From: Verrucomicrobiaceae bacterium
GTDB lineage: Bacteria > Verrucomicrobiota > Verrucomicrobiia > Chthoniobacterales > Chthoniobacteraceae
Assembly: GCA_005791535.1 (NCBI GenBank)
Contig: SXWH01000118.1
Span: 1-64,000 of the forward strand
Length of the DNA stretch: 64,000 bases
Direction of reading: 5' to 3'
The stretch's first letter is position 1. Every line of letters starts with the position of its first letter. The notes under the pieces were generated by a model. The model made no database searches. It was not told the origin of the DNA and was given only the letters and a program-made list of their open reading frames with translations. The translations under genes were made by a program, and so were the position numbers. Below are positions 918-52,034 of this stretch, piece by piece.

Positions 918-2402
918 CTACTTCGGCCGGACCTCGTAGGAATACGTCACCGAGCCGCTCTTTCGCTCCGCGCTTTCCGCCGCCGCGGGATAGGCGCGCA
1001 CGTAATCGACCACGGCCTTCTCCGGTGAGACGCTCACCCGCATGATGCCCGACGCGCCGAACTTCACGCCGCTCTTGTAGCCGTATTCATCGGCGTTGCG
1101 CGTGTTGTCGTTGCGCGAATGGCCGGGCTGCGGGACGAGCTGATACACCACGCCGTCGCGCTCGCCGCGGACGAAGATGTGGTCGTGTCCGTGAAAAACC
1201 ACGCAGCTTCCGCGCTTCGCCAGCAGGTCGTGAATCGGTGCCGCCCAGCCCGGACGCTTTTCTGTGAACGTGCTCGTGCCGTCGAGTTCCTTCCCACCCC
1301 ACTCGAAAAAGTGCGACGCCTCCACGCCGCCGCGACCTTCGGGAGTCGCGCCGCCGACGAGGTGATGCGTGAAGACGAACGTGTATTTCGCTTTGCTCGT
1401 CTCCAGAGTCTTTCGCAGCCACTCGTATTGCTCGCGACCGAGCGTGCGGCCCCAATTGTCGCCGCCGTCCTTTCGGATGCGCTGCGAATACCAAAATTGG
1501 TCGAGCGCGATGAAAAGCGCGTCGCCCCATTCCCACGCGTAGTAGTTTTCCAGCAGACCGGCCTTTGTGTGGGGCGTTGCGTTGCCCGTGTAGAAGCCGT
1601 CCGGCGACGGGTTCGGGAAATATTTTTTCCGCATTCCGTTCGACCACACCGCCATTCCGTCGCCGCCCTCCTTGCGTCCGCCGCCCATGCTTTCGCCATC
1701 GTGATTTCCCAGCACGAGAAACACCGGCGCGCTGTGCCCGACGAGGCCGAAGTAGTATCGCTGCGCGACGTATTGCGGCGCGGCGAGCGTGTAAGTCGGG
1801 CGCTTGTCCACCATGAAGGTATCGCCGAGGTCTATGTGGAAATCCGTCTTCGCCGCGAGCGCATTGGCGAGAGACTTTTCGTAAACCGCAGTGTCCACGC
1901 CGAAGTCGAGGTGCGGGTCGGCCTGCACGGTAAATGTGAACGCGCTGCCCGGCACGCGCTGCGTGCGAAAGGAACGCTCCGGCTGCAATTTCCACTCTCC
2001 GCCCGGCGCGCGCGTGCTGAGCTGGTAGAACACCTGCGAGTTCGCCCTCAGTCCTTTGAGCGGCACCTCGACTGGCTCGTCTTTCTTCAGCGGAAAAACA
2101 GATGTCTTCTCCGCGAGTTCGCCGGATTTTTCGCCGAACGCGATGACGCCTTCGCGTTCCTCGTAAGCGAGAACGCTGACCGTCACGGAATCCTTCGTCG
2201 GACGCCCGAGCACGACATCCAGCGGATGCGCGGGAACATCGGTGCGGAACAAAAACCGCACATCATCCGTGGGCGCATCCTGCGGACGCTGTCCGCCGCG
2301 TTTCCCTTCGCCGCCGCCACGCGGTTTCTCATCCGCGGCAAATGCGATGAGCGAGGCGAGCGCAGCGAATGCCGCCGGGGCGAGCAAGTGTTTGAGTTTC
2401 AT
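918..2402 (-). CDS. Secreted calcineurin-like metallophosphoesterase (purple acid phosphatase-like)
   Basis: A 494-aa protein with a signal peptide (residues 1-23) and a fibronectin-like N-terminal region (about 45-150), as in purple acid phosphatases. The catalytic domain carries all dinuclear-metal motifs: D162-x-H164, G193-D194, G232-N-H-D235, a THH motif near 345 and a GHDH motif near 406. Phosphomonoester or phosphodiester hydrolysis outside the cytoplasm is the expected activity; the substrate is not readable. Its catalytic domain is closely paralogous to the C-terminal third of the sulfatase fusion at 9124-13302, with the same ADPHLD, GGVE and W-GG-K segments. The promoter region has a copy (2424-2442) of the 19-bp box that also precedes the YHYH genes, so it is probably in the same regulon although 11 kb away. 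Confidence 0.9.
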   Translation of the reverse strand: MKLKHLLAPAAFAALASLIAFAADEKPRGGGEGKRGGQRPQDAPTDDVRFLFRTDVPAHPLDVVLGRPTKDSVTVSVLAYEEREGVIAFGEKSGELAEKTSVFPLKKDEPVEVPLKGLRANSQVFYQLSTRAPGGEWKLQPERSFRTQRVPGSAFTFTVQADPHLDFGVDTAVYEKSLANALAAKTDFHIDLGDTFMVDKRPTYTLAAPQYVAQRYYFGLVGHSAPVFLVLGNHDGESMGGGRKEGGDGMAVWSNGMRKKYFPNPSPDGFYTGNATPHTKAGLLENYYAWEWGDALFIALDQFWYSQRIRKDGGDNWGRTLGREQYEWLRKTLETSKAKYTFVFTHHLVGGATPEGRGGVEASHFFEWGGKELDGTSTFTEKRPGWAAPIHDLLAKRGSCVVFHGHDHIFVRGERDGVVYQLVPQPGHSRNDNTRNADEYGYKSGVKFGASGIMRVSVSPEKAVVDYVRAYPAAAESAERKSGSVTYSYEVRPK

Positions 2403-5192: not shown

Positions 5193-7439
5193 ATGAAATC
5201 AACCACGCTTACACTCATCACCGCCCTGCTGCTCGCGCTTTGCGCCATACCCGCGGTCGCCGACATTCGCGTCACGCCTGCGGGGGTTGCGCCGCTGAGT
5301 TTTGATTCGGCTCCGTCTTCCGGCGACTGGACCACGCTTTCCGTGGGCACTTTGGCGACCACTTACACCAGTGCGACGGCGCTCGATGTTGCGGTCTCCA
5401 CGCTCAATGCCGCCAGCATCACTGCCGCGCTGGCTTCGACTGGTTCGTGGCCGCCGACGGTGAATACCCTCGCACGCTGGAACAACGGCACGGGCGTTGG
5501 TGCCCTGCGGTGCCTCCAGACCCGTGCCTCGGCCAATGATTACCTCGTGCTCATGGCGAAGCTCACCAATGCCACGGGGGCGAACATCACGTCGTTCACC
5601 GTCAGCTATGCGTGGGGGCAGTGGCACAATCGCCCGGTGAATGAAAGCGTCGCCGGGCACCGCACCTTTTACAGCCTCACGGGAGCGCCGGGCTCGTGGC
5701 AGCTCATCCCGGCGTTGTCCGTGTTCGACAACAACAGCCCCAACCAAACGCTCACCGCGACCGTCAATGTCGGCACTTGGTCGCCGGGCACGAGGCTCTA
5801 TCTGCTCTGGGCCGATGACAACGGCCCCGGCAGCGACACCGACCCGAAGGAAGGCGGCTACACGCTGGATGACTTCTCCATTTCCAACGTCCTGCCCGCC
5901 ATCAACCACAGCTTCCTCGACAACGGCATCATCAAAATCGGCGCGGACCTCGGCAAAGGCGGCGCCATCACCTACCTCTCGCCATCGGGCACGACGAACA
6001 ACATCATCAACAACTACGACCTCGGGCGGCAAATCCAGCAGTCGTATTACTCCGGGCCGCAGCCCTACGACCCCGCGGGCAACATGCACCCCGGCTGGCC
6101 GAACTGGCCGTGGAATCCCATCCAGACCGGCGATGTTAATTTCAACCCGTCGCCGCTCATCACGCACAGCAACGACGGCCAGACGCTCTATGTAAAATGC
6201 ACGCCCAAGCAGTGGGCGCTCAACAATGTGAATGGCGAATGCACGTTTGAATCGTGGATTACGCTCAGCGGCAAAGTCGCCACCGTCAAAAACCGGCTCG
6301 TCAATTTCCGCACGGACACCACGCAGCAATTCCCCGCACGCGACCAGGAACTGCCCGCCGTTTACACCAACGGCGACCTGTTCCGGCTCGTCAGCTACAA
6401 CGGCACCGCGCCATTCACCGGCGGCGCAGTCACCACCTTTCCCAACACCCCGCCGCCGTGGCTCTATTTCCGCGCCACGGAAAGCTGGGCCGCGCTGCTC
6501 AACACGAGCGACTGGGGACTCGGCGTTTACCATCCCGGCGCGGTGCAGTTCGTCGGCGGATTTGCCGGCACGCCCGGCAGCGGCGGCACGTATGATTCAC
6601 CCACCGGCTACCTCTCGCCGATTCATCAGGAAGTCCTCGATAGCACCTTCGAACACACCTACACCTACCAACTCATCCTCGGCACGCTGACGGAAATTCG
6701 GAACCACGTTTACGCGCAGCCCTACCGCCCCGCCTGCGACTTCGTTTTCGACACCGACCGCGAGCATTGGAAGTTCGAGCAAACCACCGATGCCGGCTGG
6801 CCGTTCGTGAACCAGCGCCTCCGGGTCAGCCTCAACAGCGGCGACCCGCAGATGTGGTCGCCCCGCACCGCATTCCGCGCCGTGGATGCGCCCAAACTCT
6901 ACATCCGCGCCGCCTTTCAAATCGCCAATCCCGCCGGACGCGCCAACGGACAAGTGTTCTGGGAAAAGGACAACAGCGGCGGACTTTCGCAGGCGCAGAG
7001 CCTCATCTTCCCCGTTACCGCCGATGGCCAGTATCACACCTACGAACTCGACCTCGCCGCCACCGGCACATGGACCGGCCTCATCACGCAGTTGCGATTC
7101 GACCCCGCCTTCAACGGCGAGCCCGGCGACTACGTGGACGTGAAAGCCATCTCCTCAAATCCCTTCGCCGGAAACGAACACATCGCCCCGACGCTCACCA
7201 TCGCACGAACCAACGGCGACATCGTCATCAGCTTCCCGACCATCACCGCCGCCACCGCTGGTTTCATCGGCGAAAACCTGCGCTACGATTTGGAAAGCAC
7301 CACCGACCTCACCCCCGCCAACTGGCAGCCCGTCGCCGGCGTCACCAACGTCCTCGGCGACGGCAGCCTCAAATCATTCACCGACCCGCCTTCATCCCCG
7401 CCGAGGAAGTTCTTTCGGCTGAAAGTGCGGCTGGAGTGA
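5193..7439 (+). CDS. Large secreted protein of unknown function, possibly carbohydrate-related
   Basis: A 748-aa protein with signal peptide MKSTTLTLITALLLALCAIPAVA. No catalytic motif is recognisable. Residues about 25-230 look like a jelly-roll carbohydrate-binding module (the segment GYTLDDFSISN is typical of such modules). Residues 240-520 form a second aromatic, Asn-rich beta-sandwich, and 525-660 a third. The C-terminus (YDLESTTDL then KFFRLKV) is the short terminal module shared by many secreted proteins in this window. Regulation by the divergent GntR/LacI-type protein is likely from gene order. A role in binding or processing a polysaccharide is an inference from architecture only. 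Confidence 0.7.
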   Translation: MKSTTLTLITALLLALCAIPAVADIRVTPAGVAPLSFDSAPSSGDWTTLSVGTLATTYTSATALDVAVSTLNAASITAALASTGSWPPTVNTLARWNNGTGVGALRCLQTRASANDYLVLMAKLTNATGANITSFTVSYAWGQWHNRPVNESVAGHRTFYSLTGAPGSWQLIPALSVFDNNSPNQTLTATVNVGTWSPGTRLYLLWADDNGPGSDTDPKEGGYTLDDFSISNVLPAINHSFLDNGIIKIGADLGKGGAITYLSPSGTTNNIINNYDLGRQIQQSYYSGPQPYDPAGNMHPGWPNWPWNPIQTGDVNFNPSPLITHSNDGQTLYVKCTPKQWALNNVNGECTFESWITLSGKVATVKNRLVNFRTDTTQQFPARDQELPAVYTNGDLFRLVSYNGTAPFTGGAVTTFPNTPPPWLYFRATESWAALLNTSDWGLGVYHPGAVQFVGGFAGTPGSGGTYDSPTGYLSPIHQEVLDSTFEHTYTYQLILGTLTEIRNHVYAQPYRPACDFVFDTDREHWKFEQTTDAGWPFVNQRLRVSLNSGDPQMWSPRTAFRAVDAPKLYIRAAFQIANPAGRANGQVFWEKDNSGGLSQAQSLIFPVTADGQYHTYELDLAATGTWTGLITQLRFDPAFNGEPGDYVDVKAISSNPFAGNEHIAPTLTIARTNGDIVISFPTITAATAGFIGENLRYDLESTTDLTPANWQPVAGVTNVLGDGSLKSFTDPPSSPPRKFFRLKVRLE

Positions 7440-7459: not shown

Positions 7460-7723
7460 ATGAAACTCACTCACCTATTTACTGTCGCCATTCTACTCAC
7501 GATTCGATCCCATGCGCTCGATTACCCGCACATCACCGGCGAGCCGCAAAAGACCGGCTGGCCGCTCACGGCGGAGGAGCGGGCCTATGTCGTCGAAAAG
7601 CCCGGAATGCCCGACGCATGGGAACGCGAGCGCGGCCTCAATCCAAGCAGCTCCGCCGATGGCAACGCCACACAGCCCGACGGCTACACGAACTTGGAGC
7701 ACTACCTGAACTCACTGTCCTGA
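7460..7723 (+). CDS. 87-aa secreted mini-protein with pectate-lyase-like tail, likely deletion remnant
   Basis: The ATG lies 20 bp after the preceding gene. Residues 1-19 are a good signal peptide. The segment EPQKTGWPLTAEERAYV and the tail GMPDAWERERGLNPSS...DGYTNLEHYLNSL resemble the linker and the Ca-binding C-terminal tail found in secreted pectate lyases and related hydrolases of PVC bacteria and Bacteroidota. No catalytic domain lies between them. I infer an internal deletion of a larger hydrolase gene, though a functional small exported protein cannot be excluded. Its last 12 bp overlap the end of the convergent sulfatase gene. Confidence 0.5.
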   Translation: MKLTHLFTVAILLTIRSHALDYPHITGEPQKTGWPLTAEERAYVVEKPGMPDAWERERGLNPSSSADGNATQPDGYTNLEHYLNSLS

Positions 7724-9127
7724 TGCCTTGGGATTTCTTCCCTTCCCGCCTTTGCCGCCTTTCTTCCGCACAGGCTCCTCGCCGGGTTTGTAATCGGGGT
7801 TGGGCTTCGGCATGGCCGCGTTCACCGCGGAGAGGTAGGTTTTGAGCCGCTTGCCGAGGTCGGCTGCGATTTCTGGATTCGTTTTTGCGATGTCGTTTCG
7901 CTCGGCGAGGTCGGTCTTGAGATTGAAAAGCACGCGCTCACCAGTCTCGTAAAACTCCAGCAGCTTGTAGTCGCCCAGCCGGATGGCCGAGTGCGGCGTG
8001 TCGCCCTGATAGTGCGGGAAGTGGAACACCAGTTCCTCGCGCGGACGCTTCACCGGCGTGGCGGCTCCGGTGAACAATGGCGATAGGTCGCCGCCCTCCA
8101 AATCCGCCGGAAGTTTCTCCTTCACTCCCGCGAGCCGGCAAAAAGTCGGGAACAAATCGTAACCCACGACCGGCTGATGACACCAAGAGTCCGCCTTGAT
8201 TCCCGGCCCGCGCACGATGAACGGAACGCGGATGCCTCCCTCCCAAACGCCGCCTTTTCCCGCCCGCAGCGGACGCGCATCGCCCTTGCCAGCTCCACCA
8301 CCGCCGCCGCCACCGCCGTTGTCGCCCATATAAACAACGTAGGTCCGCCCCGTGAGACCGAGCCGCTCGATGCCTGCGAGCAATTTCCCCACGCCCGTAT
8401 CGAGGTCCGTCGTGATGGCCGCGCGCGCCGGGTCGCGGTGCATTTTTCCGGGAGTCTGCTTGTCGTAAAACTCCCGCGTGGCCTTCAGTGCGTTCTCCGG
8501 AACGTGCAGCGCGTGATACGACATCTGCACATAGAACGGCTTCCCGGCTTTCGATTGCTTCTCCATGAAAATGCCCGCGCGCTCCGTCATGCCAAAAATG
8601 TCCACGGGATTCGGGTCCACGAAACGGTCTGCATCGCGATTTCCCGTATCACCATCGCTCTCATCGTATCCGTGCTGCGCCGGCCCGCCGCCGCCGAGGT
8701 GCCACTTCCCGTAATGCGCCGTCGCATACCCCGCGCGGTTTAGCACCTCCGCGATCGTTGTTTCATCGGGGCGGATGCTCTTTCGATTCTCCGCTTCGAT
8801 CAACTTGTGCCCATCCTCCGCCGGCGCAGCCTTCGTCCAGCGAAGCGCCGCAGGATTGCGCCCCGTTTGCAGGCTGATTCGCGTCGGCGAACACACCGGA
8901 GCCGGCGCATAGCCGGAACTGAACCGCATCGCCTGCGCCGCGAACTTTTCGAGATTCGGCGTGCGATAGAAGTCGCTCTTTGAATTCGGCATATCCGGAT
9001 GCATCTGCGCCGAAAGCCCGTTCCAGTCCTGATCATCGGACAGAATGAGCACAAAATTCGGCGGTGGCTCGGCAGCGCGAGCGACGAGTGATAGCCCCAG
9101 TATGCAAAGGGTGATGAGTTTGCTCAT
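7712..9127 (-). CDS. Secreted sulfatase
   Basis: A 471-aa arylsulfatase-family protein (alkaline phosphatase superfamily) with signal peptide 1-18. The metal-binding DD is at 31-32, and the formylglycine site is C79-S-P-T-R83 with the canonical proline, so Cys-to-formylglycine maturation is expected. GKWHLGG and GDNGG motifs follow. The C-terminal tail is Lys/Gly-rich. It should remove sulfate esters from an extracellular substrate, probably a polysaccharide. Its start overlaps the stop of the upstream fusion gene by 4 bp, so it is translationally coupled as the last gene of the YHYH operon. No formylglycine-generating enzyme is encoded in this window. Confidence 0.92.
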   Translation of the reverse strand: MSKLITLCILGLSLVARAAEPPPNFVLILSDDQDWNGLSAQMHPDMPNSKSDFYRTPNLEKFAAQAMRFSSGYAPAPVCSPTRISLQTGRNPAALRWTKAAPAEDGHKLIEAENRKSIRPDETTIAEVLNRAGYATAHYGKWHLGGGGPAQHGYDESDGDTGNRDADRFVDPNPVDIFGMTERAGIFMEKQSKAGKPFYVQMSYHALHVPENALKATREFYDKQTPGKMHRDPARAAITTDLDTGVGKLLAGIERLGLTGRTYVVYMGDNGGGGGGGGAGKGDARPLRAGKGGVWEGGIRVPFIVRGPGIKADSWCHQPVVGYDLFPTFCRLAGVKEKLPADLEGGDLSPLFTGAATPVKRPREELVFHFPHYQGDTPHSAIRLGDYKLLEFYETGERVLFNLKTDLAERNDIAKTNPEIAADLGKRLKTYLSAVNAAMPKPNPDYKPGEEPVRKKGGKGGKGRNPKASGQ

Positions 9128-12100
9128 TTGGTGACGCGGTAAAATCTCTTTGGTGTTAATCCTGAGAACGCCCCGGAGTCGGTCCAGGTATTTGTCTGCC
9201 CGACATCAATGTTCGTCCAGTTTACGAGGTCGGTGGACCATTGGAGCGTGTAGCTTTGGCCGCGAAGGGCGTCCCAAGTAATGACTGCGTTGCTGCCCAA
9301 TTTTACGACGGCGACTTCGACGAAGGGCGTCGGCTTCATCGTGTAGGTGTGGGCAATGTCGCGGTTGTGGAGCGATGCGGTTTCTTGCGAGGGAAGCGCG
9401 GCGCGGACGTATTCGACTTTTGTTTCTTCTCGGGCGACGGTGACTCGCAGGTGGCCGGAGTTTGGAAGGAGCGTGCCGGTGGTGTATTGGCCGTCCACGG
9501 CGCTGCCGAGGGAGAAGTTCGGTGTGCCGGGCTGCGGGCATTCTTGATACACGACGCCGTCGAGTTGCTGGTAGGCGTAAAAGTGGTCGTGGCCGTGGAA
9601 GACCGCGCTGACGTGGTTTGCGACGAGCAACTGATGAATGGGCATCGCCCAGCCGGGACGCTTTGCGGCAAAGCCTTCGGTGCCGTCTGCGTTTTTTCCG
9701 CCCCACTCGTATTTGTCCGCGACTTCCACTCCGCCGCGACCGGATGTGGTGCCGCCGACGAGGTTGTGCAGGAACACGAACTTGAATCGAGCGCTGCTCG
9801 TTTCGAGCGTGGTCTTGAGCCAGTTGTATTGCGAGAGTCCGAGCGACCAGCGCCAATTGTCGGCGGGCGCGGAGTTTGGGTTGCTGAGCGTATTCCAGTA
9901 TGGGTCTATAACCACGAAAAGTGCGTCGCCCCACTCCCATGCGTAGTAATTTCGCATGAGCTTCTGCTGGCCGAAAATGAGCTTTGTCGCGGTATTGCCG
10001 GTATAGAAATTATCCGGCGTGGGTGAAAGGTCGGGCGCGGGCGTCGGGTAATACAGGGTCCGTGCGCGATGGTTCCACGACGCAAAGTTGTTCGATTTAT
10101 CCGGTGTGGCGTCGGCGTTGTAGGTGTAGCCGTATTCGCTCTCGTGGTTACCGAGGACGTAGAAAAACGGCGAGCTGTGGCAGTAGCGCCCGAAGAATGT
10201 GCGAAGATTCGTCGCGCGCCCGATGATCGTCTGCGGCGTAACGACGATGCCGGGGATGAACTGCGTGAGCTTGTCCGTCATGAAGATGTCGCCGAGGTCC
10301 ATGTGAAAATCCGCGCCGTCGGCGTGCATGTTGTCCATTGCGAGCGCGAAAAGTTCGGGGTTTGTGATGTCGTCGAGATGCGGGTCGGCGGTGATGGTGA
10401 ATTTGAACTCCTGTCCGCGCGAACGTTGCGTGCGAAAGGTGCGGTCGCCGCGGCTCTTGAACACCGTTTCACCCGGCGCACGATATCGCACGCGGTAATG
10501 ATAAAGCGTGTACGGGGTGAGCGGCGTTCCCGTCGGCGATTGAATCACAATCTCGAACGGGGTGCCGACGGGATAGGTCGCGACGGGGGTCTGCATGGTG
10601 TAGTGCCCAGCGGCATCGCCGATTTCAACGAAGACCTCCTGGGTACTCGATGCCTCCATATTCAGCGTCACGCTCTTTCGTGTCGGAATTCCGAGAAACT
10701 CCGATGAAGTGAACGTCGCATCCTCCAGCGTGTAGCTCACGGGATAGCTCGCCGGAGCACTGCTGGTGTTCGCGCCGCTGCTGTCCGTCGCGGAAATGCT
10801 GTAGCTTACATTCACGCCACCGGCCTGCTTCGGAACCAGTGCTCCGAAGACACCATCGCCGGCCGCTCCGTCGCCGTGGAGCCCGTCGTCGAACATCGTT
10901 ACGGTCACCGGTCCGCCGGGTGATGTCGTGATGACTTTGATGTCGTCCACGCGGACCTTTGGCGGAGGCGTGGGGTTCACCGCGTTGTAGCCTGTCATTT
11001 GAAAACGGAGCTTCAGGTTGGTGGTGAAATCCGCGCCGCTGAGGTTGTATTGATACCGCTGATGCGCGTGATTCGCGCCGGTGAGCTCGCTCAATCTCGT
11101 CGTGTAGGTCGCTCCGCCGTCGGTGGACATTTGAAATGTCCAGCCATTCGGCGAAATGAGGTCCACGGTCTCGACGTAGAACTCCACATAGCCCGACGCC
11201 GCGCCCGCGGTGTTGATGATGTTCGTCGTCGTGGCCATCGTATCAGTGAGATTCGCGGTGCCCTTGTTGAACTCCAGTCCGCATGGATTTCCCGTTGCGG
11301 AATTGTTCGCTCCAGTCGTCTGCCGGACGTTGTTTGCGGTCGCGGCTGTAATTGTCCACGGGTTATCGCATCCGTCGCCAGTCCAGGGTGTGACGGCGGC
11401 CGTGCGCATCGTTTCCGAGAAGACCGTCGTGGTTTGCGCAGAGCCGTTGTTGTAAGTCAGTTGGACGCTTTGCAGCGATTGCCCTGAGCCCGGTTGGACG
11501 TTCGCGGTTACCCACACATTGTCGAAGTACGTCGGAACGCTCGGTCCCGTCGCGACCGAGGTAATCGAAGGCCCCGCCGCGCCAATGGTGAGCGTTCCGG
11601 ATGCGCTGGTCGTGGAGCCCGCGACGTTGCTCACAACGACATCATACGCCGCTGCGTCCGCAGCCGTCACATTGCTGAGCGTGAGCCGCGTCGTGTATGC
11701 ACCCGTGACGAGGTCGCCGAGTGTGTCGGTGACTTGCGCGAACGTCGTCGCACCGCTCACCGGCGCACCGTTCTTGCGCCACTGCACGCTCGGCGCTTTG
11801 TACGAGGTGAACGGCGCATAAAGCGTGACCGTTCCGCCCGCCGGGATGCTATTCGTGATGAGCGGTGGGCCGATGTAAGGCGGGTAGCTTTCCGGCGCTA
11901 CATTGGTGATCGCCGTCGTCAGCGAGGCCGCGATTCCGGAGTATGCCGCCGCATTTCCGCCGAGCAGCAGGTCGGTCGTCTCAAACTGGTCGTCCGTCAT
12001 GTTGAACAGCTCATTCACAAACGACGCGCCAACGCGGTTGCGGATGAGCTTGAAGACCTTGCTGCCGCCATTCACCGGGTCGGTGAATGTATTCAGGCTC

Positions 12101-13302
12101 ACCGGAATCGCGGTGCCCGTCACCAGCGGCACCGGACGCTGCACGGTCGTCGAGTTGTTCGCAGCAAGCAGCGCAGGCCAGAGATTGATGCCGTCGAACG
12201 GCTTTGTATTCTGCGGCGCGACTCCCGTAGCTGCGCAGAGCGTGGGAAAAAGATCGCCCACCCACACATGCTGCGTGCTCGTCACACCCGCGGGCAGCAC
12301 GCCGGGCCAGCGAATCCCCGCCGGTGTGCGAAGCGCGCCATCGTAGCCGTCGCCTTTGGTCCCGCGCAGTGGATCGTTCAGCGAGCCCTTCACTTCATCG
12401 CCGCCATTGTCTCCAAACCACACGACGATCGTATTGTTCGCAATCCCCGCCGTATTCAGCGCGGCGAGCACCCGTCCCATCGCGGCGTCCATCCCATCCA
12501 CCGCGGCGGCGATGAGCCTGCGGTTCGTGTCTGTGACTCCGAGGTTCTGATATTTCGTTATCAAAGCCGGCGGCGCCGACACCGGGCCGTGAATCGAGTT
12601 GAACGCGAGGTAAAGCAGCATCGGCTTTGACGTGTCGCGATTCTGAATATGAGCGATAGCCTTGTCTGCGAGCAGGTCCGGCGACCACCCGCCGTGCCCC
12701 TGTGAATCCGTGTGCTCGCTCGCCCCGTCCTGCTGCACGCCGTTCAGCCACCAGTCCGGCACATCGGGATTCTCGCCCTCCGCGCTCTGGTGCGTGAAAT
12801 AGTCGATCGCTCCCGAGTACTGCCCGTAATGCGAATCCCACCCGCGATTGTACGGCGCGTATTCCAGCCCTTCCTGGATGATGCGCACATTCTGCCCGTT
12901 CACCGTCGTGTAGCTGAGATTTTTGTCCGAGCCACCGAGATGCCACTTCCCGCAAACAAAAGTCTGATACCCCGCCGTCTTGAACGTCTGCGACATGAGA
13001 TGCTCGCTCAGCGGAAGCCCGCGCGTATTGTTCGTCCCCGTGCGAAGCGTATTCCGCCCCGTCAGTAGAGCCGACCGTGTAACGCTGCAGACCGCCGTAG
13101 CATAAAACCGCTCCAGCCGGATTCCCGATGTCGCGAAGCTGTCCATGTTCGGCGTCTGAATCGGCACCTGCCCCGCCGGAGTATGATAACCGACATCGCC
13201 CCAGCCCTGATCATCCGTCACGATGATCACCACATTCGGAGCCGTCGCAAAGCACTGCGCCGCGAAAAGGAACGCCAGCAGTCGTGTGATGTAATTCTTC
13301 AT
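9124..13302 (-). CDS. Sulfatase / Ig-like / metallophosphoesterase fusion, secreted
   Basis: A 1392-aa protein with signal peptide 1-19. Residues 22-470 form a sulfatase domain with DD30-31, GKWHLGG near 118 and GDNGGDE near 297. Its formylglycine motif reads C72-S-V-T-R76, so valine replaces the consensus proline. Residues 480-575 are Ig-like; 577-830 form a beta module (ending near MFDDGLHGDG) also present in the upstream 1525-aa protein. Residues 960-1300 are a complete metallophosphoesterase: D973-x-H975, G1004-D1005, G1051-N-H-E1054, H1179, G1237-H-D-H1240. The C-terminus (NTWTDSGAF...RFYRV) is the common export-associated tail. Two hydrolases on one chain suggest a substrate bearing sulfate and phosphate. 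The gap to the upstream gene is 19 bp, and it overlaps the downstream sulfatase by 4 bp. Confidence 0.9.
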   Translation of the reverse strand: MKNYITRLLAFLFAAQCFATAPNVVIIVTDDQGWGDVGYHTPAGQVPIQTPNMDSFATSGIRLERFYATAVCSVTRSALLTGRNTLRTGTNNTRGLPLSEHLMSQTFKTAGYQTFVCGKWHLGGSDKNLSYTTVNGQNVRIIQEGLEYAPYNRGWDSHYGQYSGAIDYFTHQSAEGENPDVPDWWLNGVQQDGASEHTDSQGHGGWSPDLLADKAIAHIQNRDTSKPMLLYLAFNSIHGPVSAPPALITKYQNLGVTDTNRRLIAAAVDGMDAAMGRVLAALNTAGIANNTIVVWFGDNGGDEVKGSLNDPLRGTKGDGYDGALRTPAGIRWPGVLPAGVTSTQHVWVGDLFPTLCAATGVAPQNTKPFDGINLWPALLAANNSTTVQRPVPLVTGTAIPVSLNTFTDPVNGGSKVFKLIRNRVGASFVNELFNMTDDQFETTDLLLGGNAAAYSGIAASLTTAITNVAPESYPPYIGPPLITNSIPAGGTVTLYAPFTSYKAPSVQWRKNGAPVSGATTFAQVTDTLGDLVTGAYTTRLTLSNVTAADAAAYDVVVSNVAGSTTSASGTLTIGAAGPSITSVATGPSVPTYFDNVWVTANVQPGSGQSLQSVQLTYNNGSAQTTTVFSETMRTAAVTPWTGDGCDNPWTITAATANNVRQTTGANNSATGNPCGLEFNKGTANLTDTMATTTNIINTAGAASGYVEFYVETVDLISPNGWTFQMSTDGGATYTTRLSELTGANHAHQRYQYNLSGADFTTNLKLRFQMTGYNAVNPTPPPKVRVDDIKVITTSPGGPVTVTMFDDGLHGDGAAGDGVFGALVPKQAGGVNVSYSISATDSSGANTSSAPASYPVSYTLEDATFTSSEFLGIPTRKSVTLNMEASSTQEVFVEIGDAAGHYTMQTPVATYPVGTPFEIVIQSPTGTPLTPYTLYHYRVRYRAPGETVFKSRGDRTFRTQRSRGQEFKFTITADPHLDDITNPELFALAMDNMHADGADFHMDLGDIFMTDKLTQFIPGIVVTPQTIIGRATNLRTFFGRYCHSSPFFYVLGNHESEYGYTYNADATPDKSNNFASWNHRARTLYYPTPAPDLSPTPDNFYTGNTATKLIFGQQKLMRNYYAWEWGDALFVVIDPYWNTLSNPNSAPADNWRWSLGLSQYNWLKTTLETSSARFKFVFLHNLVGGTTSGRGGVEVADKYEWGGKNADGTEGFAAKRPGWAMPIHQLLVANHVSAVFHGHDHFYAYQQLDGVVYQECPQPGTPNFSLGSAVDGQYTTGTLLPNSGHLRVTVAREETKVEYVRAALPSQETASLHNRDIAHTYTMKPTPFVEVAVVKLGSNAVITWDALRGQSYTLQWSTDLVNWTNIDVGQTNTWTDSGAFSGLTPKRFYRVTK

Positions 13303-13321: not shown

Positions 13322-16300
13322 CTATCGCATCACCCGGTAAAACCGCTTCGCCGCTGCGCCAATCGCGCCGCTGTCAGTCCACGTGCCGACCTGCCCGACG
13401 GGGATGTTCGTCCAATTGATGAGGTCCTCGGAGGTTTGCACGGAGTAGCTGATTCCCGCTTGTGTCGGCCACTGAATGGTAACGCTGTTTCCGGCGGGTG
13501 TCGCGGTCGCTGTAAAATTTGCGGGCGGTGTGATGGCGCTCACGGTGTAGCTCGCGGCGGCGGCGGATGTGGTAGTGCTGCCGTTGTTGTCGGTCACGCT
13601 GACGCTGTAGGTGATAGTCGTTCCCGCGGCGCGCACCGGGATTTGCGCGCCGTAGAGTCCGTCGCCTGCGAGGCCGTCGCCGTGCAGGCCGTCGTCGAAC
13701 ATGGTCAGCGCGACCGGCGGATTTCCGGATGTGGTGACGACGGTGATGTCATCAATGCTGACTTTGGGTGCGGGTGTCGGAGCGACTGCGTTGTAGCCTA
13801 CGAATTGGAACCGCATCTTCAGCGTGTTCACGCGCTCGGTGGCGAGCAGGTCGTAGTGGTAGAGCTGCATCGCGTGGTTGAGCCCGGTGAGTTCGCTCAG
13901 ACGTGTGGTCCACGTGGTACCGCCGTCCGTGGAAAGCTGGAAGGTCCATCCGTTTGGCGAGATCAATGAAGATGCGCCCAGCCAGAATTCCACGTAGCCA
14001 GCGGTGCCTGCTGCCGGAATATTGTTCGTCGTGGTGACGTAATTGTCGGTGATCGTCACCGTGCCTTTGTCGAACTGCAGTCCACACGGATTGCCTGTGC
14101 CGTGGTTTGCTGCGGTGACCTGTTTGATTGTGTTTGCTGTGCCGTTGACCGTCCACGGATTATTCGCATTCGCCCCGGTCCAGGGTGTGACGGCGGCGGC
14201 GGCCATCGTTTCCGTGAAAACCGGACCGGTCGTGAGCGTGCCGTCGCTGTAGGTGAGTTGAGCGCTGGTGATGCTTGCGCCATTGGCAGCCTGAAGGCGT
14301 GCTGTGACAAATACATTGTCCACGTAGGTCGGCGTGTTTGGCGAGGTGAGGGTATTCGTGATGGTCGGTGGCGGGATGGCACCCGTGCCGGTGAGACTGA
14401 TGTCGAAGGCGGTGCCCACGCTGCTGTCGCTGCTGGCGATGTGCAGCGCCGCGGTTTTGGCGCCGGCGGTGCTCGCATTGAACTGCACGACCATCGTCGT
14501 GCTGCCGCTGGCCGCGATGCTCGATGCGGGTGGCGTGGCGACGGTGAAATTCGACGCGTTCGTGCCGTCGATCGTCACGCCGGTGATGCTGAGGGCTGAG
14601 GTGCTGCTCGTATTGCGTATCGTGAACGTCTTCGACAGCGTGCTGCCCACATTCACGCTGCCGTAGGCCACGGTGCTGCTGCCATCGGTCAAAGCGGAGC
14701 CCGTCGGCTGCTCGACCGCGATCTGCGTCGTGGTCGCGGCCGGGCCGGTGTAGCGGACGATGACTTCATTATCCAGCGTGAGGCTCGACGACCAGATGAA
14801 CTGCGCACCGCTGCCGGTGAACTGCGGCTGGAAGTTCATGTAAGCCGGGAAATTCACGCCCACTGTTGCCTCGGTGTAGGTCGTCGCATTCGGCCAGCCA
14901 GCGGTTGAGTAGGCGGACGACTGCCAGCCCACGGGCAACGGGTAATGCATCGCGTAGGCCGTCTCGGTGAGAGAGTGCGTCGCGCTGGCAGAACTGCGCG
15001 TGCCATCGGCCAGCTCGACCACTTGATTCGGATTGTCCAAGGGAGCGATGTAGAAAGTCTGCGCCTTCCATTGATTGTTCGTCACCGTGCCGTCACTGAA
15101 GCTCGCGATGAAGCCGCCGTCGCCGATGTGATACGGATCGCCGCCGTTCAATTCGGTGCCGAGGCCGAGATTCTCCTCCCAATCAACGAGCCGCACGGCG
15201 TAAGTGATCGGGCGCTTCGCCTTGAACTTCACCACGCATGAATTGAACGACGTGTAAGGCACCGGATCGACGCCCACGAGCACGCCGTTCACATACAGCT
15301 CGAAGTAATTATCGCTGAAGATGTAGCCGGTCACGACTTCGCCATCGGCATCGACCACCGTGGTCGGCAGCGCATCGATCGCGGCCTGTCGCGCAGCGAG
15401 ATTCGCGGGCGTGACGGCGGTGTATTCGTTGTACAGATCGGGAGCTTTTGGCGCGGTGGCGAATAGCGTCGCGGCAGGCACGGTCCACGTCGAGTTGTCC
15501 GTTGCGGTGATGGTGCCCACGGCGGTCACGCGCTGGCCTGGCGGAAAAAGATTCGTCGTCGTGGTCGTACCACGACCTTGCGTGATCGAGCCCGATGGCA
15601 CCGAGCGCACTGCGAAGACCGGATAGCTCGATGCAAACGGCTCGTAGCTCACGATGCCCTGCGAATTGCGGGGCGGAGTCGAACTCGTGTTCACGCCAAA
15701 CTCGACCAGCCACGCCTGCGTCGGCGAGCCGCCGCCACCACGGAGCGGCGTGGACGACCAGTAGGCGGTTGCGGTCGCTGCGGGGAAGAGCTTTCGCTGA
15801 ATGCAAGGCTGCGCGCCCGCTGCGGAAGTCGCGGTGGCGAGCGTGATGTCCACGAGGGTCTGGAGTTCCTTCACATTCGGAAGACGCCAGTCGGTGAAAC
15901 CGGCTGTCGTGAGCCCTTCGGCATACGCGAGTGCGGCGTTCCAGTTCATCGCGCTCGAAGGCACCTGCGTCCACATCAGCCCGGTATCGAGGTCCGTGAT
16001 CGTTCCGTCGTTGTTGTTCAGATAATTGTGCCCATTGGTCGGCTTCGGGCCGCGCACATACCGGGCGTGGAAGCGGAGCGTGCCGCCCGCGCTGAGCGTC
16101 TCTGTTTTTGGATGCGCTCCGAGCCCGCCGCCGGAATTCGTGCACCACACGCGCGTCGCGTCCGTTCCGAAAATATCGCTCGTCCACCAGTAGCCGGCGG
16201 CACCTGCGGGATGATTCGGAAAATACGTCAGATTCACCGCCGGATTGTTCGCGTGATTCAGAATGCTGAATGCCTCGGTTGGCGTGGGAAGCCGCCAGTC

Positions 16301-17899
16301 GCTGTATCCGCCGGTCGCCACGGCGGCCGCATTCGCGACAGCGGAATCCCAGGTCGATTCACCGTTGTCCGTTTTCTGCCACATCAGCCCGGTGACGTTG
16401 TCGGTGATGGTTCCGTCGTTGTTGTCCGTGAAGGATTGCGGATTGATCGTGTAATCGGCGTCCTCGCCGAATGTCGCACTTCCGTCCTGCGTGGCACTCG
16501 TGTCCGGCAACTTCACCATGCTCCACGCTGCCATCGGATACGTCTTTAAGCGGTTGTTTGTGCCGTTTGTGTACGTGGTCGTCGTCGTGCCTGTGGTGGG
16601 GTGCCGGTATGTGATCGTGAGCGTCTTCGGATTTACGCTGCGATTGATGCGCCAGCAGATGTCGTAGGTCGTCGCGCCCACCGTGTAGCGCATCAAATAC
16701 TGGTCTGGCGAAGGTGTGCCCGCAGGGTTATGGACGAAGTGCCCCGACCCATCCACGCTGAATGCGACGGGATTTAGGAACGCCGTGATGACCGCTCCCG
16801 AAACCGCCTGCGCAGTATAGCCGCCGGTCCCCGAGGCACGCATGGATTGCACCTCCGGTTGCGGGTCCACCTGACCGCCGAAATTCACCACCGTTCCGTG
16901 CATTGCATCCATGATGTATGGCGCGACATGCCCGCCCGCGGTGCTCCCGCGCGCGTGATAGTGGTAACCCCACGCGCCGTGCTGATGCCCGCCGTCGGCA
17001 TCCAGCGCAAGCTGCGGCGACCCGTCCGGCTCCGTGAATCCGTAAATCGGATATCCATCCAGCGCCCACGCGACCGGCTTGTCCACGCCGAGCACACTTT
17101 GCAAATGCACAGGCGCGATGTGGTAGTGGTAATCGTCCGCCAGACCGCAATGCCCGCCGTATTGGTCGAGCTCGCCGATGGCATACGAGAACTCACCGCG
17201 ATTGTTTCGCGGGTTGAAAATCGCGATGCCATTTGCAGCCACGGCTACCGCGCCGCGGAGGAAGTTTCCGTTCAGCGAGATTGGAGATGCTGCGGGCGAG
17301 GGCACCAGCGGAAGCCGCCACACATTCGGCTGCCCGTAGCCGAGCGACCCCGTGTTGTTCTCGGGATTCGTCGTCGCGAAAAAGTAGGATGTCGGCAGCG
17401 GAATCTGCTGCTGCCACGCCGTGATGCCGACCATCGGCGAAGGCATGATGGCGGGGTCCGGCACATTGTCGCCTTCGACATAGAAATACGTGCCGTCATT
17501 GTAGCTCCGGACCCGTGGTCGGAACGGCGCGAACGACGCAGTCATGAGCAATCCATTCCCAGCCGGTGCCGCGAAGAGAGCAATCTGGCCGCCGCCATTG
17601 TCGCCCACGGCACCCACCGCACCCATGCTTCCCATCGCGACAAGTTGGGAGAGCGAAGCCGCTGGGATCGCCATGGCCGCGCGCCTGCGGACCGGCTGCT
17701 TTGTGAAATAGACACGCTCAACATTGGTCGCGACGTCCGGTTTGGATTTCGCCTCATATCGTGCCGCGATGCGCGCCCTGGCCTCTTCGGAAAAGTCCGA
17801 TGCATGGTCGCCTGGGAGGTGTCCGCCGTCATGCGCCCTCGCGCTCGCTCCAAGGAGCAGACCGGCTGCAAACACGGAATATGACAATGTCGCTTTCAT
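13322..17899 (-). CDS. 1525-aa secreted YHYH / DUF1566 / beta-sandwich multidomain protein
   Basis: Signal peptide 1-22, followed by a His-rich mature start (AHDGGHLPGDH). The YHYH domain (about 125-370) carries the name motif twice, at 257-260 and 312-315. Two DUF1566/Lcl-type repeats follow (about 490-620 and 625-770), each with NDGTITD...GLMW. Residues 857-1050 form a beta-sandwich homologous to the C-terminus of the YHYH/PEBP protein at 22888. A choice-of-anchor D domain lies at 1060-1173, then a module (1177-1430) shared with the sulfatase fusion downstream, and a terminal W...RFYRV tail. The biochemical role of YHYH domains is not established; the clustered His residues suggest metal binding. 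It is the first gene of a three-gene operon, with a regulatory box 22 nt before its ATG. Confidence 0.88.
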   Translation of the reverse strand: MKATLSYSVFAAGLLLGASARAHDGGHLPGDHASDFSEEARARIAARYEAKSKPDVATNVERVYFTKQPVRRRAAMAIPAASLSQLVAMGSMGAVGAVGDNGGGQIALFAAPAGNGLLMTASFAPFRPRVRSYNDGTYFYVEGDNVPDPAIMPSPMVGITAWQQQIPLPTSYFFATTNPENNTGSLGYGQPNVWRLPLVPSPAASPISLNGNFLRGAVAVAANGIAIFNPRNNRGEFSYAIGELDQYGGHCGLADDYHYHIAPVHLQSVLGVDKPVAWALDGYPIYGFTEPDGSPQLALDADGGHQHGAWGYHYHARGSTAGGHVAPYIMDAMHGTVVNFGGQVDPQPEVQSMRASGTGGYTAQAVSGAVITAFLNPVAFSVDGSGHFVHNPAGTPSPDQYLMRYTVGATTYDICWRINRSVNPKTLTITYRHPTTGTTTTTYTNGTNNRLKTYPMAAWSMVKLPDTSATQDGSATFGEDADYTINPQSFTDNNDGTITDNVTGLMWQKTDNGESTWDSAVANAAAVATGGYSDWRLPTPTEAFSILNHANNPAVNLTYFPNHPAGAAGYWWTSDIFGTDATRVWCTNSGGGLGAHPKTETLSAGGTLRFHARYVRGPKPTNGHNYLNNNDGTITDLDTGLMWTQVPSSAMNWNAALAYAEGLTTAGFTDWRLPNVKELQTLVDITLATATSAAGAQPCIQRKLFPAATATAYWSSTPLRGGGGSPTQAWLVEFGVNTSSTPPRNSQGIVSYEPFASSYPVFAVRSVPSGSITQGRGTTTTTNLFPPGQRVTAVGTITATDNSTWTVPAATLFATAPKAPDLYNEYTAVTPANLAARQAAIDALPTTVVDADGEVVTGYIFSDNYFELYVNGVLVGVDPVPYTSFNSCVVKFKAKRPITYAVRLVDWEENLGLGTELNGGDPYHIGDGGFIASFSDGTVTNNQWKAQTFYIAPLDNPNQVVELADGTRSSASATHSLTETAYAMHYPLPVGWQSSAYSTAGWPNATTYTEATVGVNFPAYMNFQPQFTGSGAQFIWSSSLTLDNEVIVRYTGPAATTTQIAVEQPTGSALTDGSSTVAYGSVNVGSTLSKTFTIRNTSSTSALSITGVTIDGTNASNFTVATPPASSIAASGSTTMVVQFNASTAGAKTAALHIASSDSSVGTAFDISLTGTGAIPPPTITNTLTSPNTPTYVDNVFVTARLQAANGASITSAQLTYSDGTLTTGPVFTETMAAAAVTPWTGANANNPWTVNGTANTIKQVTAANHGTGNPCGLQFDKGTVTITDNYVTTTNNIPAAGTAGYVEFWLGASSLISPNGWTFQLSTDGGTTWTTRLSELTGLNHAMQLYHYDLLATERVNTLKMRFQFVGYNAVAPTPAPKVSIDDITVVTTSGNPPVALTMFDDGLHGDGLAGDGLYGAQIPVRAAGTTITYSVSVTDNNGSTTTSAAAASYTVSAITPPANFTATATPAGNSVTIQWPTQAGISYSVQTSEDLINWTNIPVGQVGTWTDSGAIGAAAKRFYRVMR

Positions 17900-20204: not shown

Positions 20205-22877
20205 ATGAGAACCATACATCCAGCCATCATCTGCTTCGTGGGGCTCCTTTTGCTCATCGCACAGGTGTGCGCACACCCCGGGCATGAAGAAGCTGCGGAG
20301 CCATCGATTCCGCCATCATTCCTATTGGCGCAGGCAACTCCGCAAGCGGCGGGATCTCCGGGTTCTTCGGGGATACGCAATGCGGGCGGTCCTCCTATCT
20401 CATTGGCGGTGAACGCGCTGGACCGGAACAAGGATGGCGTCATCGACGCCGATGAAATTGCGAAGGCCGCCGAGTCGTTGATAACGCTGGACAAGAATGG
20501 CGACGGCAAACTGAGTGCCGATGAGTATCGTGCCGGACCGGGCGGAGGTGGCGGCCGTCCGCAGCAAGCTGCTGCGACACCTGCGCCCGCACTGACTTCC
20601 GCTCCTGTGGCGGTGGCGTCGGCGGAGCATCCGGAGTCTTCCGTGCCGAAGCTCTTCAATCCAAAGGCGCTCGTAAAACCGATCACCGAAATTGAGGGAA
20701 CGCTGAGCGACGGATCCAAGGCCACGGTTTACAAAATCGTCGTGCGCTCGCTTCCCGTGGACCACGAGACGGGGCCGTGGGCTCCCGCCACGATCAACGA
20801 CAAGGGCGGGTATTGGGAGGACACGGTGGACAAGAAGCTCTATCGCGTGGATGGCGACTACCTCACAATGCTGAATAGGCGCGGATGGAGCATGTTCGAG
20901 TCCGATGGAACCGTGCATCGAACGAAAAACCGCACGGAGTTCGACAAGGTCGCGCGGCAGGAGCTCGCGGGCTGGACCATTGAGCAGGCAAAGAAGGACG
21001 GCGTGACGAACTCGGTCATCGAACTTCAGCCGCAGGAGCAAATCGTCACGATTTTTCTGCCGAAAAACCCGAAGGCTTCCGCGCAGCCGACGATGCTGCG
21101 GCAGGCGCGATTCTCACCACGCTCCGGTGTTGGAATCAGTGTCAACGGCGTCCGCTTCTTCCCGCCGGAGCCGGTGAACCGAATCACCGCATTTCAAAAT
21201 ATTGCACCGCTCGATCCGTTCGGCGGACACACGGGTTTTGGGCACGAATATCACTACCACCGTGCGCCCGCTTCGATGCAGGATGACAAATCCGGCAAGG
21301 TCGTGGGTTGGGCGCTCGACGGATTTCCCATTCGCGGGCCGTACGAGCCCGACGGCAGCAAGCCGAGGAGCCTCGATGCGATCAATGGACACGACCACGA
21401 CGGACTCGGCTATCACTACCACGCGGGCGATCAATGGCCTTACATCGTCGGCGGGTTCCATGGCCCACTCGGCACGGCCGCACTCGGTGAGGTGGATACT
21501 TGTGATGCTACGCAGCAAGGCGGCGGCGGGCCTCCGGGACGCGGTGGGAACGGACCGGGCGGCGGACGTCCCGCTGGTGGTCCTCCCGGCGCTGCGGCAA
21601 TTCCACCGGCAATCCCTGCCTCAACCGACGCACGGATCGCAAAACCGAATGTTCTAGTCCTGATTGCCGACGACCTCGGCTGGGGCGACGTGGGTTTTCA
21701 CAAAGGCAACGTCCCAACGCCGAATCTCGACCGCCTCGCGAAGGAAGGCTTGGAGCTTCAGCGGTTCTACGTTCACCCCGTGTGCAGCCCGACCCGTGCT
21801 GCGCTGCTCTCCGGACAAATGCCGCGTCGCTTTGGAATCAACGACGTGATGGGCCCAGGACAGACGCTGCCCGCCGGTTTGACGACGATGCCGGGCACGT
21901 TCCGCAGCGCAGGCTACACGACTTCGCTCATCGGCAAATGGCACCTTGGTAAGGGCAGTAGCGTCCCTCAGCAATTCGGCTTCGACCATTTCTACGGATT
22001 CCTAGGGCCGGAAATCGACTACTTCAAACACACCGGCCAGCGTGGCGATGTGGACTGGCAGCGCGACGGCACGGCGCTCAGTGAGGATGGATACTCCACG
22101 TTTCTCTTCGCCGACGAAGCCATCCGGCAGATCGAGAAGCGGGATACGAAGAAGCCGTTTTTCATGCAGGTTGCGTTCAACGCTGTGCACGTCCCGCTCA
22201 GCGCTCCCGACGATTTGCTGGCGAAATACAAGAACCTCGGGGGCCAGGCGACTAGCGCTGCTGTGCTCGATGCGATGGACACATCCGTCGGAAAAATCCT
22301 AGCCGCTCTGGATAAGGAAAAGCTGCGCGAAAACACCATCGTCGTCTTTTTTTCCGATAACGGCGCATCGCGACGAAATGGAAGCAATGGTCCATTCCGC
22401 GCGGGAAAAGGTACGCTCTGCGAAGGCGGAATACACGCGCCATGCATCATCCGTTGGCCTGGTAAACTCGCGGCCGGCACCAGCTGGCAGCCTCTAGCCG
22501 TGTTCGACCTTTTCCCCACGCTTGCCGCGGCCGCAGGAGTCAGGAATGACGCAAAGCTCGACGGCATCAATGTCTGGCCCGCACTTCAGAACGGGCGCTT
22601 GGAAAAGCGCCCCGCATTTGCAATCGCGAACGCCGATATCGCTCTCATCGACGGAGATTGGAAGCTCGTCGAATCCAGCACAGGCGAACGCGTGCTCTAC
22701 AATCTCGCGACCGACATCTCCGAATCAAAAGACGAAATCTCCGCGCAACCGGAAACCGCCGCACGACTCATCGCGCAAGTCGAGTCGATGAAAAAGGATC
22801 TCCCCGCAGCCAGCGCCCGCCGAGGCGGGCCCGGCGGAAGACCCGGTCCACGGCCGCAAGGTGGTCCGGCGAGGTAG
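20205..22877 (+). CDS. EF-hand / YHYH / sulfatase fusion, secreted
   Basis: An 890-aa protein with signal peptide 1-23 and a mature start AHPGHEE. Two EF-hand loops sit at 73-84 and 96-107. A YHYH domain spans about 160-430, with the motif at 349-352 and again at 403-406. After a Gly/Pro linker (440-475), a full sulfatase domain begins (KPNVLVLIADDLGWGD): formylglycine site C527-S-P-T-R531, GKWHLG near 577, SDNGA near 717. The sulfatase half looks active; the YHYH half retains the DG(F/Y)PI and YHYH motifs. It stands between a terminator and a convergent gene, so it is monocistronic. No copy of the 19-bp box was found upstream. I know of no characterised protein with this order of domains. 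Confidence 0.9.
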   Translation: MRTIHPAIICFVGLLLLIAQVCAHPGHEEAAEPSIPPSFLLAQATPQAAGSPGSSGIRNAGGPPISLAVNALDRNKDGVIDADEIAKAAESLITLDKNGDGKLSADEYRAGPGGGGGRPQQAAATPAPALTSAPVAVASAEHPESSVPKLFNPKALVKPITEIEGTLSDGSKATVYKIVVRSLPVDHETGPWAPATINDKGGYWEDTVDKKLYRVDGDYLTMLNRRGWSMFESDGTVHRTKNRTEFDKVARQELAGWTIEQAKKDGVTNSVIELQPQEQIVTIFLPKNPKASAQPTMLRQARFSPRSGVGISVNGVRFFPPEPVNRITAFQNIAPLDPFGGHTGFGHEYHYHRAPASMQDDKSGKVVGWALDGFPIRGPYEPDGSKPRSLDAINGHDHDGLGYHYHAGDQWPYIVGGFHGPLGTAALGEVDTCDATQQGGGGPPGRGGNGPGGGRPAGGPPGAAAIPPAIPASTDARIAKPNVLVLIADDLGWGDVGFHKGNVPTPNLDRLAKEGLELQRFYVHPVCSPTRAALLSGQMPRRFGINDVMGPGQTLPAGLTTMPGTFRSAGYTTSLIGKWHLGKGSSVPQQFGFDHFYGFLGPEIDYFKHTGQRGDVDWQRDGTALSEDGYSTFLFADEAIRQIEKRDTKKPFFMQVAFNAVHVPLSAPDDLLAKYKNLGGQATSAAVLDAMDTSVGKILAALDKEKLRENTIVVFFSDNGASRRNGSNGPFRAGKGTLCEGGIHAPCIIRWPGKLAAGTSWQPLAVFDLFPTLAAAAGVRNDAKLDGINVWPALQNGRLEKRPAFAIANADIALIDGDWKLVESSTGERVLYNLATDISESKDEISAQPETAARLIAQVESMKKDLPAASARRGGPGGRPGPRPQGGPAR

Positions 22878-45495: not shown

Positions 45496-46011
45496 ATGCC
45501 ATACACCGGAATCGTCCTCACCATTCTCTCCATTGTCTTCGGAGCCTTTCTCATTCTGCTCGCGCACTGGCTCGTCGCCATCGGCCTGTTTTCGAAAACC
45601 ACGCAGCTCTGCGAGGCGGAATTTCGCAGGCGTCCTGTGCGTTGCCTGCTCGTCGGGATACTCACCTTCGGGATTCTCATGGCCTTTCTACTCGCGCTCG
45701 CGGGGAAGGCCGGCGGAGGTGCGCTGATCATCGCCTCCATCCCGCTTCTCATGTCATTCGTCGGCTCAGCCGGCATCGCTCTGCGAATCGGGAGTGATCT
45801 GTCGCGCACCCGCGAGCCATGGCGGAGGGGAATCCGCGGGGCGACGATGCTCGGCTTCTGCTGCATCACTCCGGGCCTCGGATGGTTTATCATCCTCCCG
45901 CTCGCACTCGCCGCAGGTTTTGGTGCGCTTCTGCTCGCGAAGCCATGGAAATCCGGAGCTGCTCCGGAAACGGCGTCAGCGATTGATTCCAGCGTTCCCG
46001 CACTGTCATGA
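45496..46011 (+). CDS. Hypothetical four-helix membrane protein
   Basis: A 171-aa protein with transmembrane segments at about 5-30, 49-69, 75-95 and 118-148, and a short Ala/Ser-rich tail. Cytoplasmic loops are Arg-rich (FRRRPVRC, SRTREPWRRG). I do not recognise the family. Its stop overlaps the start of the DUF1800 gene by 4 bp, so it is translationally coupled to that gene. It could assist export or membrane placement of the DUF1800/DUF1501 pair, which is only an inference from gene order. Confidence 0.75.
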   Translation: MPYTGIVLTILSIVFGAFLILLAHWLVAIGLFSKTTQLCEAEFRRRPVRCLLVGILTFGILMAFLLALAGKAGGGALIIASIPLLMSFVGSAGIALRIGSDLSRTREPWRRGIRGATMLGFCCITPGLGWFIILPLALAAGFGALLLAKPWKSGAAPETASAIDSSVPALS

Positions 46012-47552: not shown

Positions 47553-47556
47553 CACC

Positions 47557-48681: not shown

Positions 48682-48685
48682 TCGA

Positions 48686-50005: not shown

Positions 50006-50086
50006 GTGTTGCGCAATGTGCCGGCTTTCCCTGCGAATGCAACCACCCGACGCGACTTGCAACCGCGCGGGCGCGCTGTAAACGGG

Positions 50087-51343: not shown

Positions 51344-51347
51344 GATT

Positions 51348-52034
51348 ATGCCGAAACTGCTGCTTTGGGACATCGACGGGACCATCATTTCCAGCGGAGG
51401 CTGCGGGGAGGCCTCGCTAAGGCTGGCGGTGCGGGATTTTTTCGGGTGCGACGATGATTTTAAAGACATCGAGATCGCCGGGCGGACCGATACGCGCATC
51501 GCGCGGCAGTTGCTGCGGAAATGCGGGCGTGAGGAAACTGTGGAAGCCATTGACGCGTTGCTCGGGCGCTACTTGCACCATTTGCCGCAGTTGCTTCCGC
51601 AACGAAAAGGCGTGCTGCTCCCGGGAGTGGCAGATGTTCTGGATGTGCTCGCGCGGCGGGATGATGTGGTGCTCGCGTTGCTGACCGGCAATCTCGCGGC
51701 GGGCGCGGAGCTTAAATTGTCACACTACGGCGTGTGGCACTACTTCCGGTTCGGCGCTTATGCGGATGATCATTTTGACCGGAATGAACTGGGGCCCGTG
51801 GCGATGAAGCGTGCACGGGAAAAGGGGTACGAATTTGCACCGCGTGATGTGTGGGTGCTCGGTGACACGCCGCATGACATCGCGTGTGCACGGGCTTTCG
51901 GAGCGAAGGCGCTTGCCGTTGCCACAGGGGCTTTTCCGTCGGCGCAGCTTGCGCAGCACAAACCAGATGCGCTTTTTGAAAACATGGTCGATACCGCGGG
52001 CGTGGTGAGTGTGCTCGCAGGCGAGGTGGATTGA
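51348..52034 (+). CDS. HAD-superfamily phosphatase
   Basis: A 228-aa HAD subfamily IA hydrolase resembling phosphoglycolate phosphatase. Motif I is WDIDGTI (nucleophile D8, general acid D10), motif II is LLTGN near 110, and motif III/IV includes K150-x-x and VLGDTPHDIACARA. A helical cap lies at about 15-85. It should dephosphorylate a small molecule in the cytoplasm. It follows the radical SAM gene by 4 bp and ends 38 bp before the GH127 gene, which is also on this strand. The substrate is unknown. Confidence 0.88.
   Translation: MPKLLLWDIDGTIISSGGCGEASLRLAVRDFFGCDDDFKDIEIAGRTDTRIARQLLRKCGREETVEAIDALLGRYLHHLPQLLPQRKGVLLPGVADVLDVLARRDDVVLALLTGNLAAGAELKLSHYGVWHYFRFGAYADDHFDRNELGPVAMKRAREKGYEFAPRDVWVLGDTPHDIACARAFGAKALAVATGAFPSAQLAQHKPDALFENMVDTAGVVSVLAGEVD

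Follow-up and report, generated by a model that had tools for sequence, protein, structure and literature searches.

A sulfatase-metallophosphoesterase fusion in Verrucomicrobiota with valine or methionine at the proline position of the sulfatase activation motif

The fused gene and its relatives

The window analysed here, that is, the whole stretch of 64,000 nucleotides at the start of contig SXWH01000118.1 from a Verrucomicrobiaceae bacterium (GCA_005791535.1), contains an open reading frame at 9124-13302 on the minus strand that encodes one chain of 1392 residues, with an ATG start and an N-terminal hydrophobic, signal-like segment; the product is predicted to be exported. Pfam profiles place a Sulfatase domain at residues 22-361 (PF00884; E 3e-47; 161.8 bits against a curated cut-off of 25, covering profile positions 1-301 of 301), an I-set/Ig_3 domain at 479-566 and a Metallophos domain at 966-1241 (PF00149; E 2e-5; 25.5 bits against a cut-off of 21.5), and an NCBIfam choice-of-anchor-X match lies at 801-829. 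These domains, together with a full set of metallophosphoesterase (MPE) ligands, agree with the preliminary description of this DNA, in which a sulfatase and a complete MPE had been recognized in a single chain. The features discussed below are as follows:

9124..13302, minus strand: sulfatase-Ig-anchor-metallophosphoesterase fusion, 1392 aa, predicted exported
12220..13239, minus strand: S1 sulfatase domain, residues 22-361 (Pfam)
13075..13089, minus strand: activation motif C72-S-V-T-R76, Val for Pro
11605..11868, minus strand: Ig-like domain, residues 479-566 (Pfam)
10708..11592, minus strand: choice-of-anchor-X-type region, residues 571-865, which recurs in the YHYH protein upstream
9310..10722, minus strand: fibronectin-like domain and MPE, residues 861-1331 (Pfam Metallophos match 966-1241)
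13322..17899, minus strand: upstream partner, a YHYH and Lcl_C protein of 1525 aa, fused into the same chain in relatives L036 and L037
7712..9127, minus strand: stand-alone sulfatase with canonical CSPTR, whose start overlaps the stop of the fusion (ATGA)
918..2402, minus strand: stand-alone MPE from this family, with 40% identity to the MPE of the fusion
20205..22877, plus strand: EF-hand, YHYH and sulfatase (CSPTR) protein; among relatives of the fused sulfatase domain that have Pro, it scores best (41% identity)

A similar C-terminal tail (..NWTNI.VGQ..TWTDSGA...RFYRV; window 9124-9300 and 13322-13500) closes both the fusion and the YHYH protein upstream of it, and a looser version ends the region 5193-7439; this tail is possibly a sorting or surface module that the two share. 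Further along, positions 46008-58685 of the window contain DUF1800 and DUF1501 genes and genes for a radical SAM protein, a GH127 beta-L-arabinofuranosidase-like protein and a DUF7133/HEAT/cytochrome c protein.

By scanning genome contigs of Verrucomicrobiota, the same fusion was found in three relatives:

L035: Verrucomicrobia bacterium IMCC26134, complete genome; motif CSVTR
L036: Spartobacteria assembly; motif CSMTR
L037: Verrucomicrobia assembly; motif CSVTR

In addition, an MPE 63% identical to that of the fusion (G161:C248; L084:1-1698) is preceded by an anchor-X region and cut at the contig start, and this locus could be a fifth fusion.

Estimates of dN/dS among pairs with computable dS (Nei-Gojobori) range from 0.06 to 0.24 for the sulfatase domain and from 0.09 to 0.18 for the MPE domain, rough values given the high dS in most pairs, and both domains are under purifying selection. 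An origin by recent decay or artefact, with a damaged sulfatase joined to a phosphatase by chance or by assembly error, has to be considered in view of the draft state of the window's assembly (294 contigs). However, IMCC26134, whose genome is complete, has the same architecture (73% in the best segment), as do two other assemblies, and the fusion has no stops and a low dN/dS, all of which makes such an origin highly improbable.

Activation motif and active site of the fused sulfatase

The absence of Pro from the sulfatase motif, C72-S-V-T-R76, had been pointed out in the preliminary description and can be read directly from the codons (TGC AGC GTT ACA CGG). The same description had asked whether Val is conserved in the fusion elsewhere; the three other Verrucomicrobiota carry Val, Val and Met. 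It had also envisaged homologues with CxPxR together with a sequencing error at codon 74, a combination that does not apply, as the fusion homologues lack CxPxR. An error at Val74 was ruled out, given that Pro to Val takes two base changes and that the window's GTT corresponds to GTG and GTG (Val) and ATG (Met) in the relatives. The updated PS00523 signature, C/S-x-P/A-x-R, does not describe the fusion, which has CSVTR (CSMTR in L036). In a SulfAtlas alignment of 4058 S1 sequences, Pro occupies this position in 87%, Ala in 369 sequences and each other residue in <1%, so that Pro is a usual rather than a universal mark of S1 sulfatases (PMC5066984).

The remaining active-site residues of the fused sulfatase (D30-D31, K119, H121, H238, D298-N299 and K316) are kept, and the S1 metal and catalytic set of D, D, C, R, K, H, H, D, N and K is complete in all four members. 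The earlier view that the domain is not simply decayed is thus upheld by intact residues and purifying selection, which argue for a working sulfatase domain but do not separate turnover from binding. Compared with S1 sulfatases in general (PF00884; human arylsulfatase B, 1fsu; carrageenan S1_19 enzymes, 6prm and 9hh3), the fusion has the same fold, position of the Cys nucleophile, Arg, metal ligands and Lys/His set; it differs in having Val/Met at +2 in place of Pro/Ala and an attached phosphatase. Human 4-sulfatase (1fsu) and the S1_19 carrageenan sulfatases are the nearest solved structures, and an AlphaFold model of the domain (mean pLDDT near 59) supports the fold class only. PDB queries with two other Val lineages yielded no solved Val sulfatase among the alignments listed.

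Of the domains whose alignment covers the motif, the closest sulfatases outside the fusion (~34-41% identical) all carry CSPTR or CTPTR. A quick-search tree of 76 S1 domains unites the four fusion members in a single branch (SH-aLRT 100) within a group of 14 rows, the other rows of which all have Pro. Parsimony on this tree gives three changes to Val/Met: one in the fusion clade, one to Val in a CSVSR clade (L120, L121, L124 and L125) and one to Val in a CGVSR/CWVSR clade (L013 and L126), the latter two clades having intact active sites. A degenerate DNA motif pattern, which is restricted and undercounts Val and Pro alike, detected Val at 7 places in 6/289 genomes, and Pro in 121 genomes, in a survey confined to Verrucomicrobiota. 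The 7 places correspond to two fusion members, four sulfatases of the CSVSR clade and one CWVSR sulfatase, to which a CGVSR gene in the window's genome is related, and the translated CSVSR and CWVSR sulfatases retain the metal and catalytic motifs.

These data bear on an alternative in which Cys72 would stay unconverted and the domain would merely hold sulfated polysaccharide, so that the phosphatase, and with it the canonical sulfatase next door, would be brought to that polysaccharide. Pro is absent in every fusion member and kept in stand-alone sulfatases up to 41% identical, as such a role might lead one to expect, and the CSPTR sulfatase coupled by the ATGA overlap could perform the hydrolysis. 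On the other hand, every catalytic residue, K119, H121 and H238 among them, is kept in 4/4 members under purifying selection, two other Val-bearing S1 clades also have complete sites, and suspected dead sulfatases lose the Arg, as in the CCPSL genes of the window's genome. A domain restricted to binding is regarded as unlikely. The CCPSL sulfatases without the motif Arg are found at L029:1195-2544, L020:1402-2787 and L008:3324-4040, and nine Arg-less sequences from Lentisphaerae and Planctomycetes have been described as possibly inactive (PMC5066984).

The metallophosphoesterase and the gene neighbourhood

In the MPE half, D973, H975, D1005, N1052, H1053, H1179, H1238 and H1240 make up the full DxH/GD/GNH/H/GHxH ligand set. 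The same ligands are found in purple acid phosphatases and phytases (6git, 4dhl) and in PhoD (2yeq), which also have a fibronectin-like domain followed by a two-metal phosphoesterase, as in the fusion. However, the Tyr ligand of purple acid phosphatases (GDxxY) is missing, the window having LGDIFMTDK and most relatives LGD[IT]FM, and the PhoD profile (PF09423) reaches 18.5 bits against a cut-off of 27. Because of the absent Tyr and the PhoD score below cut-off, the MPE is assigned, as judged from sequence, to the calcineurin-like phosphoesterases but to neither of these two families. No solved relative emerged from a PDB search with the single MPE sequence, and a profile of 22 family members matched purple acid phosphatases weakly (E 1.6e-8). 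The AlphaFold model, of low confidence (mean pLDDT 58) and supporting the fold class only, aligned over most of its length with kidney bean purple acid phosphatase (Z 17.5) and PhoD (Z 14.9). The family to which this half belongs consists of stand-alone proteins of ~500 aa, often encoded by two tandem genes.

In the window, the YHYH-Lcl_C gene (13322-17899) is followed by the fusion 19 bp downstream and then by the CSPTR sulfatase (7712-9127); neither the YHYH partner nor the downstream sulfatase had been mentioned in the preliminary description. A single chain joins YHYH, Lcl_C, sulfatase and MPE in this sequence in L036 (3413 aa) and in L037 (at least 5174 aa, the frame being still open where the examined DNA stops). 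Within the stretches examined at 21 MPE-family loci, a sulfatase gene occurs in 8/21, a YHYH gene in 6/21 and a PBP domain in 7/21. Two of the loci (L092 and L102) have YHYH, sulfatase and MPE in this order on one strand, and a third (L117, from the same genome as L035) has YHYH-PBP, MPE and sulfatase. The three loci contain the same kinds of protein as the fusion, in the same order in L092 and L102, but as separate genes, and their sulfatases are CxPxR proteins from other S1 clades. Modules split into separate genes elsewhere had been proposed as evidence against the fusion; such genes do exist, but they reveal a conserved neighbourhood and leave the fusion unrefuted. From gene content and order, the fusion is the joined form of a Verrucomicrobiota neighbourhood of YHYH(-PBP), sulfatase and MPE.

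The fusion is not simply two joined neighbours, since its sulfatase lies outside the clade of MPE-adjacent sulfatases and belongs to another S1 clade. The 7712-9127 sulfatase groups with the stand-alone sulfatases next to MPE genes (L100-L103, L064 and L065; support 100), and the fused domain falls elsewhere on the tree. The data directly support the fusion, the conservation of Val/Met, the intact sites in both enzyme domains, their purifying selection and the gene neighbourhood.

Maturation and possible role

The minimum consensus of formylglycine-generating enzyme (FGE) substrates has been described as CXPXR, and the copper site of FGE as two cysteines (PMC4505483, PMC12123546). IMCC26134, which carries a CSVTR fusion, encodes an FGE whose two-Cys signature reads LCHASYC (L158); that of the FGE in G269, a carrier of a CSVSR sulfatase, reads LCHVDYC (L159). 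Neither genome gave a match to the anaerobic sulfatase maturase. The window's genome gave 16 FGE-domain matches and, for the anaerobic maturase, nothing better than a 42-bit match, the cut-off being 349. Both copper cysteines occur in none of the FGE-domain matches that the signature pattern could read, some loci having no match to the pattern. The best candidate (L031:1474-2484) has C-x4-S, with Ser at the second copper cysteine, and an FGE-like sequence (L032:1-972) has neither cysteine. This genome is ~87% complete in 294 contigs, and the absence of a two-Cys FGE from it proves little. Given this incompleteness and the two-Cys FGE of IMCC26134, an odd maturase as the cause is unsupported.

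The reading considered most likely, and held to be somewhat more probable than its denial, is that the sulfatase is active and that an ordinary aerobic FGE, tolerant of a hydrophobic residue (Val, Met) at +2, would convert C72 to formylglycine. It is favoured because the active site is conserved under purifying selection, three S1 lineages have Val independently of one another and a two-Cys FGE is encoded by the complete genome of IMCC26134. On the same grounds, one of the two possibilities in the preliminary description, a maturase that accepts Val, seems to fit the comparative data better than the other, a domain that only binds. Points against FGE-matured activity are the CXPXR minimum described for FGE, the rarity of residues beyond Pro/Ala (each <1% of 4058 S1 sequences), the Ser at the second copper cysteine in L031, the origin of the fused sulfatase outside the clade that usually adjoins MPE genes, and the neighbouring CSPTR sulfatase, which could supply sulfatase activity alone.

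The domain might also be active by another route, i.e., with an unmodified Cys, through an unknown maturase, or by acting on phosphate or phosphonate esters rather than sulfate esters. Such esters are hydrolysed elsewhere in the alkaline phosphatase superfamily, the motif falls outside the described FGE consensus, and in the window's genome the second copper Cys is missing from the clearest FGE candidate and the anaerobic maturase match is below cut-off. However, two-Cys FGEs and Val sulfatases occur together in IMCC26134 and G269, and the S1-type active site is closest to those of GalNAc-4- and carrageenan sulfatases; this route is judged quite unlikely.

If ordinary FGE matures C-x-V/M-x-R in Verrucomicrobiota, the accepted CXPXR rule would be too narrow. 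We give about even chances to this proposition, together with at least three origins of Val, one of them in the YHYH-sulfatase-phosphatase fusion. The conserved Val-bearing motif suggests that the rule of sulfatase activation is looser than textbooks have it. A literature search on the maturation of Pro-less sulfatases found no direct test. If Val/Met at +2 is matured, the rule behind motif-based annotation and aldehyde tag design is too narrow, and natural substrates without Pro are available as a panel for testing, along with a named FGE (IMCC26134, L158).

As for the role of the fusion, we infer export, anchoring, maturation, hydrolysis of both esters and a shared substrate. The gene would encode a secreted two-enzyme protein in which Ig and anchor-type domains connect an S1 sulfatase with a purple-acid-phosphatase/PhoD-like MPE. 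Associated with the surface or matrix, it may take sulfate and phosphate groups off one extracellular polymer, a sulfated and phosphorylated material that is probably an exopolysaccharide or glycan. One chain would keep both reactions together, and the anchor-type domains common to the fusion and its YHYH partner would place both proteins in the same structure.

The fused YHYH-sulfatase-phosphatase gene system is apparently undescribed, the enzymes themselves being of known kinds. No functional study of YHYH proteins was found in the literature search, and the YHYH/sulfatase/MPE neighbourhood supplies a functional context for them. A second YHYH/sulfatase neighbourhood was observed at G000:C60:538-8219 (L044 for part), where a long frame with a YHYH match adjoins a CSPAR sulfatase of 1201 aa that includes an anchor-X-type region.
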